Source of the DNA: Pseudomonadota bacterium
GTDB lineage: Bacteria > Pseudomonadota > Gammaproteobacteria > Steroidobacterales > Steroidobacteraceae
Assembly: GCA_003242275.1 (NCBI GenBank)
Contig: QGUX01000099.1
Location: 1 to 11,166 of the forward strand
Length of the DNA: 11,166 nt
Direction: 5' to 3'
Part shown: positions 3,163 to 9,088 of the stretch, in pieces
How positions within the stretch are numbered: the first letter of the stretch is position 1
How the letters are laid out: each line of letters opens with the position of its first letter
The notes under the pieces: model-generated
What the model was told of the DNA's origin: nothing
The model's input: only the letters and a program-made list of their open reading frames with translations
Databases searched by the model: none
Translations under genes and position numbers: made by a program

Positions 3163-4350
3163 ATGAGCCCGATCCGCCTGCCGAACCTGATCGTCGCGGC
3201 TGCCCTGGGCGCCGTGCTCGCGGCCTGCTCGCTGTCACCCCTCAAGGACGAGGCGGCCCCTGAGCCGGTGGAGCCGGTCGAGCCCGAGATCATCCTCGGC
3301 GAACCCCTCGCCACCCACCGCTTCGAGATCGATCCCGAGACCGACGTGGTCGGCCAGGTGCAGGTGGTGATCATCGGCGAGCACGACACGCTCTCCGACG
3401 TGGCGCGCCGCTTCAACGTCGGCTACGACGAGATCGTGCGCGCCAACCCGGGCGTCGACCCCTGGCTGCCGGGGGTGGGACGCGAGGTGGTGGTGCCCAC
3501 CCAGTTCGTGCTGCCGGCCGCGGAGCGCAAGGGCATCGTGGTGAACCTCGCCGCGATGCGGCTGTTCTACTTCCCCACGCCGAAGAAGGGCGAGCCGCAG
3601 GTGGTCTACACGCACCCGATCGGCATCGGCAAGGTCGGCTGGTCCACGCCGGAGGGCACCACCAAGGTCACCGGCAAGGAGAAGGACCCGGTGTGGCGTC
3701 CCACCGCCTCCATCCGCGAGGAACATCGCAAGAACGGCGACCCGCTGCCGGCCGTGGTGCCGCCGGGCCCGGACAATCCGCTGGGCAAGTACAAGCTGAC
3801 GCTTGGTTGGCCCACCTACCTGATCCACGGCACCAACAAGCCCTATGGCGTGGGCATGCGCACCAGCCATGGCTGCATCCGCATGTATCCCGAGGACATC
3901 GAGGTGCTGTTCGGCATGGTGGCCAAGGGCACGCCGGTGACGGTGGTGAACCAGCCCTACCTGTTCGGCTGGCACGAGGGCGAGCTGGTGCTGCAGGCCT
4001 ACGACGTGCTCGAGGACGACAAGCGCGACTGGGCGAAGTCGCGGCCGAAGCTGCTGCAGAAGACCTTCAGCAAGCGCCTGCAGAAGCTGGTGGACGAGCG
4101 CGGCGAGAAGATCGACTGGGCGCGCGTGGACGAGATCGCCAATGCGCCGCGCGGCCTCGCCGTGTCGGTGACGGATCCCGGGCACACCGTGGACACCCTG
4201 GTCGCCGCGGCTCCCCGGGTGGAGAACCGCGTACCCGACGGCGCCAACTGGGATGGCGCGGATGATCCGGCGCGCCTGGCCGAGGCGGAGGCGCGCAAGT
4301 CCGGCGAGTCTTCCACAGTCGCAGAACAGCGACAGGTGCCGCGCAGTTGA
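3163..4350 (+). CDS. LysM and L,D-transpeptidase (YkuD) domain lipoprotein
   Basis: This 395-residue lipoprotein is of the ErfK/YbiS/YcfS/YnhG type. Residues 1-22 form a lipoprotein signal with lipobox LAAC (C22), followed by a proline/glutamate-rich spacer. A LysM peptidoglycan-binding domain lies at about 66-112 (GEHDTLSDVARRFNVGYDEI, then a closing VVVPTQF). The catalytic domain covers about 123-255 and contains H222 in LIHGTNKPYGVG and the active-site SHGCIRM with H236 and C238. Such enzymes make 3-3 peptidoglycan cross-links or attach outer-membrane lipoprotein to the wall; which reaction applies cannot be read here. A charged C-terminal extension (about 260-395) is predicted helical, then disordered. 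The frame is open far upstream, but the lipoprotein signal at 3163 fixes the start. Confidence 0.94.
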   Translation: MSPIRLPNLIVAAALGAVLAACSLSPLKDEAAPEPVEPVEPEIILGEPLATHRFEIDPETDVVGQVQVVIIGEHDTLSDVARRFNVGYDEIVRANPGVDPWLPGVGREVVVPTQFVLPAAERKGIVVNLAAMRLFYFPTPKKGEPQVVYTHPIGIGKVGWSTPEGTTKVTGKEKDPVWRPTASIREEHRKNGDPLPAVVPPGPDNPLGKYKLTLGWPTYLIHGTNKPYGVGMRTSHGCIRMYPEDIEVLFGMVAKGTPVTVVNQPYLFGWHEGELVLQAYDVLEDDKRDWAKSRPKLLQKTFSKRLQKLVDERGEKIDWARVDEIANAPRGLAVSVTDPGHTVDTLVAAAPRVENRVPDGANWDGADDPARLAEAEARKSGESSTVAEQRQVPRS

Positions 4351-4366: not shown

Positions 4367-4513
4367 ATGGCAAAGCTGTCGGAATGGATGCGGATCATGC
4401 TCGGCGAGATCGCCCGCAAGCAGGAAGAGGCGCGTGCGGCCGAGGCGGAAAGAAAGCTTCGTGAGGCAGCGGCGCGCGAGCAGCAGTCCGCGGTGAGGTC
4501 AGCGGCGCGGTGA
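4367..4513 (+). CDS. Small charged helical protein, 48 residues
   Basis: The protein starts MAKLSEWMRIMLGEIARKQEE and continues as a highly charged Ala/Glu/Arg/Lys helix to AVRSAAR. An amphipathic N-terminal segment (W7, M8, I10, M11, L12) followed by a single charged helix suggests a short coiled coil or peripheral membrane helix. No known family is recognised. The frame is open upstream to about 4253, but that part overlaps the transpeptidase gene and the ATG at 4367 gives a sensible protein. It begins 16 nt after the transpeptidase stop, and its TGA overlaps the GTG of the sheath-like gene (GTGA), the arrangement expected for translational coupling. A role with the sheath-like protein is inferred only from this overlap. 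High Ala/Glu/Arg content is easy to obtain in GC-rich DNA, so the gene call itself is moderate. Confidence 0.65.
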   Translation: MAKLSEWMRIMLGEIARKQEEARAAEAERKLREAAAREQQSAVRSAAR

Positions 4514-6108
4514 GCGTCATCAGGGGGTCCGGTCTCCTGCCCGGGTCACCGGGTGTCGCCGTCTCTCCCGCTCTTGTTGCCGAGGATGCCGCCGCCGCGG
4601 GCATCCTCCCCGCGCCGGTCGACGTGGTCGCCTTCCTCGGCCGCACCCTCAAGGGTCCCGTGGGCGAACCCGTCGCAATCGACGGCTTCGCCGACTTCGA
4701 GCGCGTCTTCGGCGGGCTCTGGACGGGGTCGCTGCTGCCGCACGCGGTGGAGCAGTTCTTCGAGCACGGCGGCTCCCGCGCCGTCATCGTGCGCGTGGCC
4801 AGCGGCGCGCGTCCGCCCACCATCGATCTGCCCGCCGGCCGCGAGCGCCTGACGCTGGTGGGCATCAGTCCCGGCAGCGGCGAGGCATTGCGCGCCTCGG
4901 TGGACCACGACGGCATCGCCGCGCAGGACTCCGACCTGTTCAACCTGGTGGTGCAGCGGGTGCGGACGCGCGGTTCGGAGCTGGTCGAGGACCAGGAGAT
5001 CTACCGCCGCGTCTCCGTCCTGCCCGGCTCGGCGCGCGAGGTGACGCGCAAGCTGGCCGCTTCGCGACTGGTGCGCGTGGCCGGCCCGCTGCCCTCCACG
5101 CGCCCGGACATCACCCGTGGCCGCGACCCCGGCGCGCTGATCGGCTATGTCGAGTGCAACGGCGATGGCGAGGATGGCGAGCTGCTCTCGGACTACGACC
5201 TGATCGGCAGCGAGGCGCGGCGCACCGGGCTGTTCGCGCTGAAGGACGGGCCGCACTTCAATTTCCTGTACATGCCGCCGCCGGCACGCGAGCGCGACGT
5301 GGGCATCAGCGCGCTGGTGGTGGCGGCGCGCTTCTGCCGGGAGCGCAATGCCATGCTGCTGGTCGACCCGCCGCTCGCCTGGCGGCGCGTCGAGCATGCG
5401 CTCGCCGGGTTGGCCGACTGGCCCTTCCACAGCGCCGACGCGATGATGTTCTTCCCGCGCCTGTCGGCGCCCGACCGGCTCACGGCCCGCCACGAGGAAT
5501 TCCCGCCGTCGGCGGCCGCCATCGGCGCGCTGCTGCGCAACCGCCGCACCGATGTCTGGGTCGACGAAACCGATCCGCCGCTGCTGCGCCCCAGCGCCAC
5601 GCCGATGGTGTGGGTGGACCGGCAGCAGCGGCTGCGCCTGGCGCAGCTGGGTGTCAACGCGCTGCGCGCCACGCGCACGCCGCTGCGCGAGTCCGTGCCC
5701 ACCTGCACGCTGGCCGGCGAGCTGGGCAATGGACCGGAGGCGCGGCTGCTGTCCGCGCGCCGCCTCGCCAAGCACCTGGCCGCCAGCATCGAGCGCGGCA
5801 CGCGCTGGGTCACGCTGGAGGGCAACACCGCCAGGAGCCGCGAGCGCGTGTGCCGCCAGGTGGGCGAACTCCTCGCCGGCTTCGCCTCCCGGGGCGCCTT
5901 CGCCGGCAACGAGCGCAACCGCGACTGGTTCGTGCTCTGCGACGAGCGGCTGAACGGCGAAGCCGAACTCGGCGGCGGGGTGTTCCGCCTGATCTGGGGA
6001 TACCGCCCGGTGCACGGCGCCTCGCGCATGGCCTGGCTGGTGGAACATCGCGCCGCCGGCAGCACTTCCCGCCCGGTGAGCCTGAACCAGTTCGCCGCGC
6101 TCGGGTAG
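4510..6108 (+). CDS. Phage tail sheath-like protein (orphan)
   Basis: The 532-residue protein follows the plan of contractile-tail sheath proteins. The N-terminal region has PGVAVSP (about 14-20), VAFLGRTLKGPVGEPVAIDG, FADFERVFGGLW and HAVEQFFEHGGSRAVIVRV (to about 96). The middle region has FNFLYMPPPA, VVAARFCRERNAMLLVDPP (about 270-288), ADAMMFFPRL and PPSAAAIGALL. The C-terminal domain has LGVNALRA, LLSARRLAKHLAASIERGTRW (about 413-433) and GVFRLIWGYRPVHGASRM (about 490-507). In phages, such subunits stack around a tube and contract. Start is GTG, overlapping the previous TGA, with GGTGAGG 11 nt upstream. No tube, baseplate, spike, AAA+ or other phage gene is present in the window; neighbours are housekeeping genes. 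Base composition matches them, so it does not look recently acquired. The family is firm; the role is unknown. Confidence 0.85.
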   Translation: MSVIRGSGLLPGSPGVAVSPALVAEDAAAAGILPAPVDVVAFLGRTLKGPVGEPVAIDGFADFERVFGGLWTGSLLPHAVEQFFEHGGSRAVIVRVASGARPPTIDLPAGRERLTLVGISPGSGEALRASVDHDGIAAQDSDLFNLVVQRVRTRGSELVEDQEIYRRVSVLPGSAREVTRKLAASRLVRVAGPLPSTRPDITRGRDPGALIGYVECNGDGEDGELLSDYDLIGSEARRTGLFALKDGPHFNFLYMPPPARERDVGISALVVAARFCRERNAMLLVDPPLAWRRVEHALAGLADWPFHSADAMMFFPRLSAPDRLTARHEEFPPSAAAIGALLRNRRTDVWVDETDPPLLRPSATPMVWVDRQQRLRLAQLGVNALRATRTPLRESVPTCTLAGELGNGPEARLLSARRLAKHLAASIERGTRWVTLEGNTARSRERVCRQVGELLAGFASRGAFAGNERNRDWFVLCDERLNGEAELGGGVFRLIWGYRPVHGASRMAWLVEHRAAGSTSRPVSLNQFAALG

Positions 6109-6119: not shown

Positions 6120-6644
6120 ATGGGTGTGACAGGGCATGTGGTGTTCTCGCACGGGCTGGACGGGTCGCCGTTCGGCACCAAGATCCGGGCGTTGTACGAG
6201 ATCGCGGAGGCCGAGGGCTACGAGGTCGCGGCCGTGGACTACCGCGGCGTCGACGACCCGGAGGAGCGCGTGCAGATGCTGCACGAGTTCTGCCGCGGCT
6301 TCACCGGCCACCTGATCCTGGTGGGCTCGAGCCTGGGTGGCTACGTGTCGCTGGCCGCCGCGCCCACGCTGCATGCCGGCGGCGTCTTCCTGATGGCCCC
6401 GGCCATCTACGTGCCCGGCCTGCCGCCGCTCAAGCGGGGTGTGCCCGACTGTCCCATCGCGCTGGTGCATGGCTGGCGCGATGAGGTCATCCCCTACGAA
6501 CAGAGCATGCGCTTCGCGCAGGAGAACCGCCTCGCGCTGCACCTGGTGGAATCCGACCACCGGCTGCACAGCGCCATTCCCTTCCTGCGCTACCTGTTCC
6601 AGTACTTCCTCGTCGAAGCCCGCCGCGCACGCTTCGTGCCGTAG
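6120..6644 (+). CDS. Small alpha/beta-fold hydrolase (YqiA/YcfP-like)
   Basis: This 174-residue protein has a minimal alpha/beta-hydrolase fold. VVFSHGLDGSPFGTKI (about 7-22) gives the first strand and HG oxyanion-type loop. The nucleophile elbow is LVGSSLGGYVS with S71. D121 in HGWRDEVIP and H147 in ESDHRLH complete the likely triad. The size and GxSxGG elbow resemble the YqiA/YcfP group of small esterases, whose natural substrates are mostly undefined. There is no signal peptide, so it is cytosolic. The frame is open far upstream inside the sheath gene; ATG 6120 is chosen because the fold begins there. It lies 11 nt after the sheath gene and 5 nt before plsB, so it is probably cotranscribed with plsB. 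An ester substrate from lipid metabolism is possible, but only by neighbourhood. Confidence 0.88.
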   Translation: MGVTGHVVFSHGLDGSPFGTKIRALYEIAEAEGYEVAAVDYRGVDDPEERVQMLHEFCRGFTGHLILVGSSLGGYVSLAAAPTLHAGGVFLMAPAIYVPGLPPLKRGVPDCPIALVHGWRDEVIPYEQSMRFAQENRLALHLVESDHRLHSAIPFLRYLFQYFLVEARRARFVP

Positions 6645-6649
6645 CCCCC

Positions 6650-9088
6650 ATGGAATCCACCATGGATCGTTTCACCGGGACCCTGCTGCCCTGGCTGCGC
6701 TTCTCCGTGCGCCCGCGGGACGCGGCCGAGCGCGTGGCCCAGGCCGACGCGCCGGTGTGCTACGTGCTGGAGACCGGCCGCGCGCTCGACGTGCGCGTGC
6801 TGCAGCGGGCCTGCGCGCAGGCCGGCCTGCCCCGGCCGCGCAAGGCGCTGCTGCCCGGCACCACCGGACGGAAGCTGCAGTCGCTGCTGGTGCTGACGCG
6901 CAGGGTGGGCTTCTGGAAGAAGCGCATCGACCGCCGGCCGCCGCCGGAACTCCGGAGCCTGCTCGAGGCGCTGCGGCGTGATCCCGCCCTCGACGTGATG
7001 CTGGTGCCCGTGGCCGTGTACTGGGGGCGGGCGCCGCGGCGCGAGCACGTGTCCTGGTTCCGCCTGCTGTTCTCCGAGGACTGGGCGCTGACCAGCGGCG
7101 TCAGCCGCTTCCTGTCGGTGCTGCTGAACGGCCGCAATACCGTGGTCGAATTCGGCACCGGCGTGTCGCTGCGCTCGCTGGTGGGCGAGGGCGCCGCCGA
7201 CAACCAGGCGGCGCGGCGCGTGGTGCGCCACCTGAATGGCCAGCTGGTCGCCTCGCGCACCGCCTACGTGGGCCCGGACCTGTCCCACCGCCGCACGCTG
7301 ATGTACGACGTGCTGCGCGGCCGCAGCGTGCGCGCGATGGTGGCGCAGGAGGCGGCGGAGAAGAAGATCCCGCGCCGGGAAGCGCTGCTGTCGGCCAAGG
7401 CGATGTTCGAGGAGATCGCCGCCGATTACTCGCACACCTTCGTGCGGCTGATGGAGCGTGTGCTCAGGCGGCTGTGGACGCGCATCTACGACGGTGTGTT
7501 CGTGGCCAATGTCGATGCCCTTTCCGGCATCGCCACCGGCAGCGAGCTGGTCTACGTGCCCTGCCACAGGAGCACCATGGACGACCTGCTGATGCCCTAT
7601 GCCATCTACACGCATGGCTTCGCGGTGCCGCACATCGCCGCCGGCATCAACCTGAACCTGCCGGTGATCGGTCCGGCGATGCGCAAGGGCGGGGCGTTCT
7701 TCCTGCGCCGGAGCTTCCGCGGCAACGCGCTGTACTCGGCGGTGTTCATGCGCTACCTCGCCGTGATCATGGCGCGCGGCCATCCCATCCAGTACTTCAT
7801 CGAGGGCGGCCGCAGCCGCACCGGCCGCTCGCTGGCGCCCAAGACCGGCATGCTGTCGATGACGGTGCGTTCCTTCCTGCGCAATCCGGTGCGCCCGGTG
7901 GTGTTCGTGCCGGTGTACATCGGCTACGAGCGCATCATGGAGATCGACAGCTACCTGGGCGAGCTGTCGGGCAAGCCGAAGGAGAAGGAGAACCTGTGGG
8001 GGTTCATCCGGAGCCTCAAGCGCCTGCGCGAGAACTTCGGCCACGTGCACGTGAACATCGGCGAGCCCATCCCGCTCGCGCCGCTGCTGGACGAGCATGC
8101 CCCGGACTGGCGCGGGATGCTGGGCCAGGAGGGACGGGCCGCGGCGGTCAGCGGCGCGGTGGACGCGCTGGCCGGCAGGATCATGCGCCGCGTGAACGCG
8201 GCGGCGGCGGTGACGCCGGTGAACCTGATCGCCATGGTGATGCTGGCCACGCCGCGCCATGCCATGCTGGAGGCCGACCTCGCGCGCCAGCTCGCCACCT
8301 ACCTCGATCTGCTGCGGGCGGCGCCCTACGACGCGCACATGACGGTGACCGACCTCGACGCCGCGTCCATCATGAAGCTGGGCTTCGAGCGCGGCCTGCT
8401 GTGCCGGCTGGAGGGCGATGCGGTGGGGCTGGCGCCGGCGCATGCGCCCGGCATGCCGTACTACCGCAACAACGTGCTGCACGTGTTCGCGATCCCCTCG
8501 CTGCTGGCCTGCTGCTTCCTGTCCAACGGGAAGCTGCGCGCGGCCGATGTGCTGCGGCTCGCCGGCCGCGTCTATCCCTATGTCTCCGAGGAGCTGTTCC
8601 TGCGCTGGAGCGAGGAGGAGATCGGGCCGGAGGTGCGCCGCCAGCTGGAAGCCATGCGCGCGGTAGGGCTGCTGCGCCAGTCGCCGGACGACCCGGAAGC
8701 CTGGTGCGCGCCGCCGGCCGCCTCGGCCGAGGCCGTGCAGCTGTCGGTGCTGGCGCAGCCCATGCTGCAGACGCTGGAGCGCTACTACGTGGCCATCGCG
8801 CTGCTGCTGAATGCCGGCAGCGGCCGGATCGCGCAGGCGGAGCTCGGCCGCAAGTGCCAGGAGGTGGCGCAGCGCATCGTCACGCTGTACGGCTTCTACT
8901 CGCCGGAGTTCTTCGACCGCTCGCTGTTCGACGGTTTCCTGGGCCTGCTGCGCCGGCGCGGCGTGATCCGCGCCGACGGCGAGGGCCGGCTGGTGTTCGA
9001 CGACGTGCTCGAGCGCGTCGCCGAGGACGCGCAGCTGGTGCTATCCGAGCAGCTCCGCAACAGCGTGCTGCAGGTGCTGCACGGCTGA
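6650..9088 (+). CDS. plsB: Glycerol-3-phosphate 1-O-acyltransferase PlsB
   Basis: The 812-residue enzyme acylates sn-glycerol-3-phosphate at position 1, using acyl-CoA or acyl-ACP, at the inner membrane; this is the first step of phospholipid synthesis. All four acyltransferase blocks are visible: PCHRSTMDDLL with H306 and D311 (HX4D), GGAFFLRRSFRGNALYSAVF (R354), IEGGRSRTGR (E385) and VFVPVYIGYE (P421). These numbers coincide with the E. coli positions as I know them, and length is close to E. coli PlsB (about 807), which supports ATG 6650 over ATG 6662. A long N-terminal region and a helical C-terminal half are as usual for bacterial PlsB. It follows the hydrolase gene by 5 nt with no clear ribosome binding site. 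Its last 48 bp overlap the 3' end of glpD on the other strand. Confidence 0.97.
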   Translation: MESTMDRFTGTLLPWLRFSVRPRDAAERVAQADAPVCYVLETGRALDVRVLQRACAQAGLPRPRKALLPGTTGRKLQSLLVLTRRVGFWKKRIDRRPPPELRSLLEALRRDPALDVMLVPVAVYWGRAPRREHVSWFRLLFSEDWALTSGVSRFLSVLLNGRNTVVEFGTGVSLRSLVGEGAADNQAARRVVRHLNGQLVASRTAYVGPDLSHRRTLMYDVLRGRSVRAMVAQEAAEKKIPRREALLSAKAMFEEIAADYSHTFVRLMERVLRRLWTRIYDGVFVANVDALSGIATGSELVYVPCHRSTMDDLLMPYAIYTHGFAVPHIAAGINLNLPVIGPAMRKGGAFFLRRSFRGNALYSAVFMRYLAVIMARGHPIQYFIEGGRSRTGRSLAPKTGMLSMTVRSFLRNPVRPVVFVPVYIGYERIMEIDSYLGELSGKPKEKENLWGFIRSLKRLRENFGHVHVNIGEPIPLAPLLDEHAPDWRGMLGQEGRAAAVSGAVDALAGRIMRRVNAAAAVTPVNLIAMVMLATPRHAMLEADLARQLATYLDLLRAAPYDAHMTVTDLDAASIMKLGFERGLLCRLEGDAVGLAPAHAPGMPYYRNNVLHVFAIPSLLACCFLSNGKLRAADVLRLAGRVYPYVSEELFLRWSEEEIGPEVRRQLEAMRAVGLLRQSPDDPEAWCAPPAASAEAVQLSVLAQPMLQTLERYYVAIALLLNAGSGRIAQAELGRKCQEVAQRIVTLYGFYSPEFFDRSLFDGFLGLLRRRGVIRADGEGRLVFDDVLERVAEDAQLVLSEQLRNSVLQVLHG

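Follow-up and report, generated by a model that had tools for sequence, protein, structure and literature searches.

Tail sheath proteins are known as parts of contractile machines, among them T6SS, whose contractile sheath is built from two sheath-fold proteins, TssB and TssC. The tail sheaths of phages (T4 gp18, P1, XM1 and Milano) have the sheath fold in common with the protein described here and are virion proteins that assemble by handshake arms around a tube, with N- and C-terminal strands of the subunits pairing with neighbours and thus holding the rings together, according to two papers (PMC10457771, PMC10811340). The sheath of a haloarchaeal contractile injection system (CIS; 9ezm, Halogeometricum borinquense) is likewise part of a contractile system, which is reported to mediate antagonism (PMC11566945). 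The nearest tube-linked relatives that we found are the eCIS-type sheaths of loci L097-L101. In L097 the sheath gene is followed by tube (PF06841), T4_baseplate-type, Pvc16_N, AAA and eCIS_core genes, and L098-L101 carry a tube-like ORF, recognised by eye. Full-text searches confined to openly licensed papers listed none that, judged by its title and the beginning of its abstract, concerns an orphan sheath family.

The window, as we call the whole stretch of 11,166 nucleotides that was analysed, carries such an orphan sheath gene with the following features:

3163..4350, + strand: L,D-transpeptidase (LDT), YkuD, the conserved same-strand neighbour upstream of the sheath gene

4367..4513, + strand: 48-aa microprotein (MAKLSEWMRIMLGEIARKQEE...), whose TGA stop overlaps the GTG start of the sheath gene (GTGA)

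4510..6108, + strand: orphan sheath-like protein, GTG start, 532 aa

4510..4614, + strand: sheath codons 1-35, the place of the N-terminal handshake arm

4954..5400, + strand: sheath codons 149-297, containing 11 of the 12 positions at which the orphan family has fixed a new residue

5476..6105, + strand: sheath codons 323-532, the inner and C-terminal part, where 42 of the 58 lost sites lie, among them those of the KAPA region and of the C-terminal arm (PLKPAEF)

6120..6644, + strand: alpha/beta hydrolase, whose cluster lies near the sheath gene in 31 of 64 loci

6650..9088, + strand: PlsB-like glycerol-3-phosphate acyltransferase (GPAT_C), whose cluster lies near the sheath gene in 23 of 64 loci

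A sequence-only reading of the window had described a complete phage-tail-sheath-like gene between an L,D-transpeptidase and an alpha/beta hydrolase, with host-like base composition and no other tail gene in view. Domain searches identified the same neighbours, the transpeptidase as YkuD, and no tail gene matched among the nine other ORFs scanned, which cover only part of the small ORFs; the eCIS genes looked for (tube, Pvc16_N cap, AAA ATPase and eCIS_core) had no match in the same nine ORFs. The GC content of the sheath gene (0.735, against 0.709 for the window) and its GC3 (0.925, against 0.927 for the LDT gene and 0.952 for the PlsB gene) are in line with those of host genes. In addition, the LDT showed a LysM match just below the cut-off and, by eye, a lipoprotein-like N-terminus. 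The 48-aa ORF at 4367-4513 was absent from the earlier reading.

By fold and by sequence homology, the window protein is a member of the contractile tail sheath superfamily. It matched the PHROG_23 tail sheath family (E=3.3e-17) and sheath chains in the PDB, with E values of 1.8e-18 to 8.3e-18 from the single sequence and of 3e-47 from the family profile, the latter including the Streptomyces CIS sheaths 8bky, 8bl4, 9gtp and 9gts, which have the same fold over most of the chain. The structure prediction proposed as a check on the sheath assignment likewise matched solved sheaths over most of the chain length, and the relative P0015 (named Steroidobacteraceae) is 74% identical. Curated models were silent, with no match for the window sheath in Pfam-A (E up to 0.01) or NCBIfam (E up to 1) and neither of the Pfam sheath domains, PF04984 and PF17482, in the window protein up to E 0.01; the orphan L049 matches both domains below the cut-offs and the eCIS relative L097 matches them above. 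The claim that N-terminal, middle and C-terminal sheath regions are all recognisable thus holds for the fold and fails for curated sheath models, and the N- and C-terminal arm motifs are absent from the window protein. The model has a confident core, whereas residues 1-29 are disordered and lack the eCIS YPGVYIEE motif, of which a residual PGVAV stands at residues 14-18. Two C-terminal strands (507-514 and 517-523) were predicted with mostly good confidence, and that they might form a self-capping hairpin is offered here as an idea only. The model of a control eCIS sheath (P0146; alignment of 32 rows, mean column identity 72%) was poor from about residue 318 onwards, with a mean pLDDT of 61.6; because the two alignments differ in depth and diversity, the contrast between the orphan and control models allows no conclusion.

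Comparison with the tube-linked sheaths showed that the assembly motifs have been lost while the body has been retained. The sheaths of L097-L101 have a YPGVYIEE-type start and a GFAPLKPAEFVV-type end, and eCIS sheaths keep YPGVYIEE-, KAPA- and PLKPAEF-type motifs, whereas the window protein has no N-terminal arm, KAPA or C-terminal arm motif. Across the family, the strict N-arm motif was found in 4/85 orphan rows (L046, L049, L050 and L073) compared to 16/17 canonical, tube-linked rows, a looser version in 32/85 and 15/17, respectively, and the C-arm motif in 1/85 and 16/17. KAPA and WG[AS]RT were each seen in none of the 85 orphan rows and in 15/17 canonical ones, and a very loose P-[AGS]-[EQ]-[FYW] pattern occurred in 28/85 and 16/17. 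The orphan rows include two fragments, L020 and L044, unable to show every motif, and these counts leave out duplicates or near-duplicates (L024-L029, L031, L033, L039, L088-L094), the 10-base L105, and L095/L096. 

Furthermore, when 84 orphans were aligned with 42 eCIS sheaths (L020, of 251 aa, was dropped), 57 sites were conserved in both groups, 58 conserved eCIS sites were lost and 12 were newly fixed. Within residues 39-311 lie 42 of the 57 shared sites but only 4 of the 58 lost ones (Fisher p 3e-14 for this contrast), together with 11 of the 12 new ones, which are Q149, R150, Q162, Y213, Y229, D230, G233, F242, L283, P288 and A297, all within codons 149-297. Orphans keep a median of 2 of the 58 lost residues, while sheaths outside the site definition keep 51 (Ensifer) and 45 (Streptomyces). 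Four more distant sheath-type rows keep just 14-23 of the 58, indicating that part of these losses, defined on a narrow reference set of 42 rows from one eCIS subgroup, is subgroup-specific. Of the 12 orphan residues, 1-5 are present in these six outside rows; the two rows of L104 were taken out of the site comparison and brought back as outside controls.

The state of the arms bears on a rival explanation, also among the options of the sequence-only reading, in which the protein would still polymerise in the cytoplasm, without a tube, into a static tubule or filament of sheath alone, held by what remains of the C-terminal strands and of the N-terminal segment and lined or capped by the microprotein. 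The body fold appears intact in the model, strands 507-514 and 517-523 are predicted and 32/85 rows show the loose N-arm; together with the four strict rows, the latter implies that some polymerisation may survive. However, the N- and C-terminal strands that hold the rings together, as described in PMC10457771 and PMC10811340, have lost most of their conserved residues, and the monomer model shows residues 1-29 as disordered, even if a donated arm may be disordered anyway. We consider such a static polymer rather unlikely, though it is the main rival.

The sheath gene is under purifying selection. Its dN/dS, from simple NG86 counts with gene starts as called, was 0.10-0.34 in 11 pairs, within the range of GreB and other neighbours. 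A quick ML tree separated the 84 orphans from the 17 canonical rows by one branch (SH-aLRT 99, no bootstrap; L020, of 251 aa, L024-L029, L031, L033, L039, L088-L094, L105 and L095/L096 were left out). The orphan descends from a sheath subunit akin to those found in eCIS-type contractile injection systems. Within the tree, the strict-arm rows L046, L049 and L050 lie near the orphan base and L073 is nested, so that arm erosion looks gradual. 

A functionless, decaying remnant of a prophage or eCIS, to which the loss of the tail motifs could point, is at odds with the purifying selection, with the 57 sites common to orphans and eCIS sheaths, with the 12 newly fixed ones and with retention of the gene in 228/296 genomes of the order, and we give it almost no credence. 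Altogether, the gene has been domesticated. Of the three options put forward by the sequence-only reading, that of a domesticated structural protein is strongly supported by the spread across 228 of 296 order genomes, the lost assembly motifs and the purifying selection, and another, a contractile particle encoded elsewhere, is contradicted in most relatives by data described below, so that its overall interpretation stands in part.

Regarding distribution, a scan of contigs yielded 23 loci, all in proteobacterial MAGs, three of which are named Steroidobacteraceae. Judging from these names, the order sampled, that of G013, is probably Steroidobacterales, to which NCBI assigns Steroidobacteraceae. 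The window probably belongs to it too, as synteny and the relative P0015 suggest. In this order 233 of 296 genomes matched, 228 of them at E<1e-50 and mostly with one match each; the gene is mostly single-copy and apparently vertically inherited in this gammaproteobacterial order. With the best eCIS sheath at 1.6e-102, those 15 carriers among the 228 whose E was above 1e-105 were re-read together with G100; KAPA was absent from all of them and their residues were orphan-type, the pieces found in G286, G123 and G235 not reaching the KAPA region. Five matches in the order were weak: those of G264 and G301 are fragments whose residues resemble the orphan type, and those of G031, G039 and G065 appear canonical or of another kind. 

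Within the class sample 27/274 genomes matched: G013, G029 and G033 are orphans that also belong to the order sample, G515, G391, G387, G379 and G355 have eCIS sheaths, and the remaining 19 gave E values of 8e-28 to 7e-9 and were read in part. In the phylum sample only G013 and G708 matched at E<=1e-40 among 299 genomes, and G708 was rejected as an orphan because its motifs are canonical. Matches were also found in 44 plasmid records, of which two were opened, Streptomyces L109 and Ensifer L108; both were rejected as orphans because they are eCIS-type, with a tube-like ORF adjoining the sheath (by eye in Ensifer). The Ensifer adhaerens locus (L108 6989-13817) lies on a megaplasmid, in a stretch without annotated features. 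Two further observations concern single loci. L022 (JAHEEO010000011.1) is titled Rhodospirillales, yet its genome falls in the order of G013 and, in the tree, its orphan sheath clusters with that of G157, so the label is probably wrong. In L123/L132 (G229:C4:107329-108711), the orphan sheath matches in two pieces (profile 16-207 and 303-534) within one open frame, leaving a gap of about 95 positions in the middle of the profile; a deletion within the gene, spanning the region of new conservation, may be the cause.

A search for tail genes elsewhere in the genome, proposed with the earlier reading, was run in relatives. The tube model (PF06841) matched 11/296 order genomes with the control genomes silent, and these matches show that the model does ring; gp25 (PF04965), which is also used by T6SS, matched 19/296, with matches in two control genomes. 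In the first contig set, tube matches were found in 0/23 carrier genomes, where the control was also silent. Intersecting the lists, 16/228 carriers had a tube or gp25 match or both and 212/228 had neither. G029, the one orphan carrier with an eCIS that was read in detail, has an eCIS-like locus (L104) with tube and gp25 matches, and its orphan (L103) is separate, with an LDT gene upstream. Two sheath-type ORFs, 638 and 990 aa long, and two matches to the tube model lie in L104 (4687-10593). Thus, that the orphan is the sheath of a contractile particle with its other genes elsewhere, as the 16 carriers might suggest, is contradicted in the 212 carriers with neither match and in G029, whose cluster has two sheath-type genes of its own, and we regard it as very improbable. 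By extension from these relatives, the window's own genome would have no tail genes.

No phage or defence link emerged either. Two peptide patterns, followed through 62 stretches, confirmed no relative in viral contigs, and none of 50,697 phage records matched the window protein at tblastn E 1e-5. A prophage or tailocin remnant was rejected, there being no linked phage genes among the ORFs scanned, no phage relatives in these searches and no sporadic distribution. Sheaths that are arm-less with an intact body would be plausible dominant negatives, and the orphan could in principle be an interference factor that caps or poisons the tail assembly of an incoming contractile phage or eCIS. Nevertheless, its core-gene spread and stable place beside housekeeping genes are unlike those of most defence genes, and no PADLOC defence family matched the sheath, the microprotein or the LDT up to E 0.01, which makes this role improbable.

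The sheath gene is frequently accompanied by the microprotein. In the window its ORF begins 16 bases past the LDT stop, and the GTGA overlap makes translational coupling likely, so that microprotein and sheath are probably translated together. Across 28 aligned members, W7, M11, E14, E28 and R32 do not vary. A microprotein of about 40-65 aa lies upstream of the sheath gene on the same strand in 40/66 orphan loci, the window counted (64 loci plus L102 and L103; L024-L043 and L084-L096 left out), and was not found in the other 26; in L011 and L023 it has no start codon in the stretch scanned. It was found in 0/6 eCIS loci scanned. A protein database search yielded 25 clusters of 43-49 aa, including the window's own, all unnamed or 'hypothetical'. 

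In addition, the microprotein co-occurs with the sheath gene across the order, in 12/40 sheath-positive compared to 0/40 sheath-negative genomes, and all 12 matches lie upstream of the sheath gene, on its contig and strand, at distances of 33 bp to 5.3 kb. Among the sheath-positive genomes, 12 were loci scanned before, with 3 known microprotein carriers, and the microprotein was found in 9 of the remaining 28; in all, 28 of the 40 gave no match to it. The sheath-negative genomes were taken from 63 known negatives, and 22 of the 40, with sizes of 2.5 Mb or less, may be incomplete. As these genomes may also be lineages of their own, the co-occurrence is partly phylogenetic.

The LDT gene is also linked to the sheath gene. 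It was called upstream on the same strand in 51/61 loci with a called sheath gene, and a profile search added L011, L048, L082 and L083, plus the later loci L102 and L103, so that the synteny comparison suggested earlier gave 57/65 testable loci (L001, whose contig begins with the sheath gene, was excluded). The eight loci in which no LDT gene was found are L022, L045, L046, L049, L050, L051, L054 and L079, and none of eight eCIS loci scanned had an LDT gene upstream of the sheath. The distance between the two genes ranges from overlap to 5.7 kb, and the LDT gene mostly stays despite a changing wider neighbourhood, which has a LemA cluster in 34/64 loci and, in another clade, an SppA-like and lipoyl-synthase-like set (named by eye). 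The absence of the LDT gene from 8/65 loci and of the microprotein from 26/66 loci and 28/40 genomes means that neither is obligatory. The LDT-sheath link could be inherited gene order, and neither of the two links is independent of shared ancestry.

The gene order also varies in other ways. In L003 (6809-9924) and L047 (8284-12983) extra genes lie in between, in L003 an M1-type peptidase and a rhomboid-like protein (by eye), with the LDT-microprotein-sheath order kept. A hydantoinase/oxoprolinase-like gene (by eye) of about 1200 aa, not present in the window, occurs in 28/64 loci, antisense to the sheath gene and usually just downstream (L005 4917-8660, L013 11653-15234 and 26 further loci).

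Lastly, an order-wide core gene that has lost its assembly parts and is often in the company of a microprotein probably does a new job, unlike that of the sleeve of an injection device. The best explanation overall, which we hold with somewhat better than even confidence, is a domesticated sheath acting as a soluble, non-contractile scaffold or adaptor together with the microprotein. A sheath subunit has become a gene of most members of the order, keeping the body fold, losing KAPA and most conserved arm residues and fixing new residues in the middle. On this explanation, the product would be cytoplasmic, non-contractile and translated together with the microprotein, which could bind the exposed inner or handshake side of the sheath, and the newly conserved middle-domain patch may bind a client, probably one of the cell-envelope or peptidoglycan machinery served by the linked L,D-transpeptidase. 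More tentatively, and with less than even confidence, we propose that this core sheath-fold protein, its arms and tube-facing side freed from constraint, its middle domain carrying a new binding patch and the dedicated microprotein replacing the contacts to tube or neighbours, couples a cytoplasmic scaffold to L,D-cross-linking or another envelope task.

The analysis raises a concrete partner hypothesis, LDT-microprotein-sheath, and brings to light a microprotein family whose only label in databases, if it has one, is hypothetical. A sheath descendant kept order-wide without machine, tube or intact arms would show that this fold can turn to ordinary cell biology, and the orphan family offers a clean test of what the sheath body alone can do.
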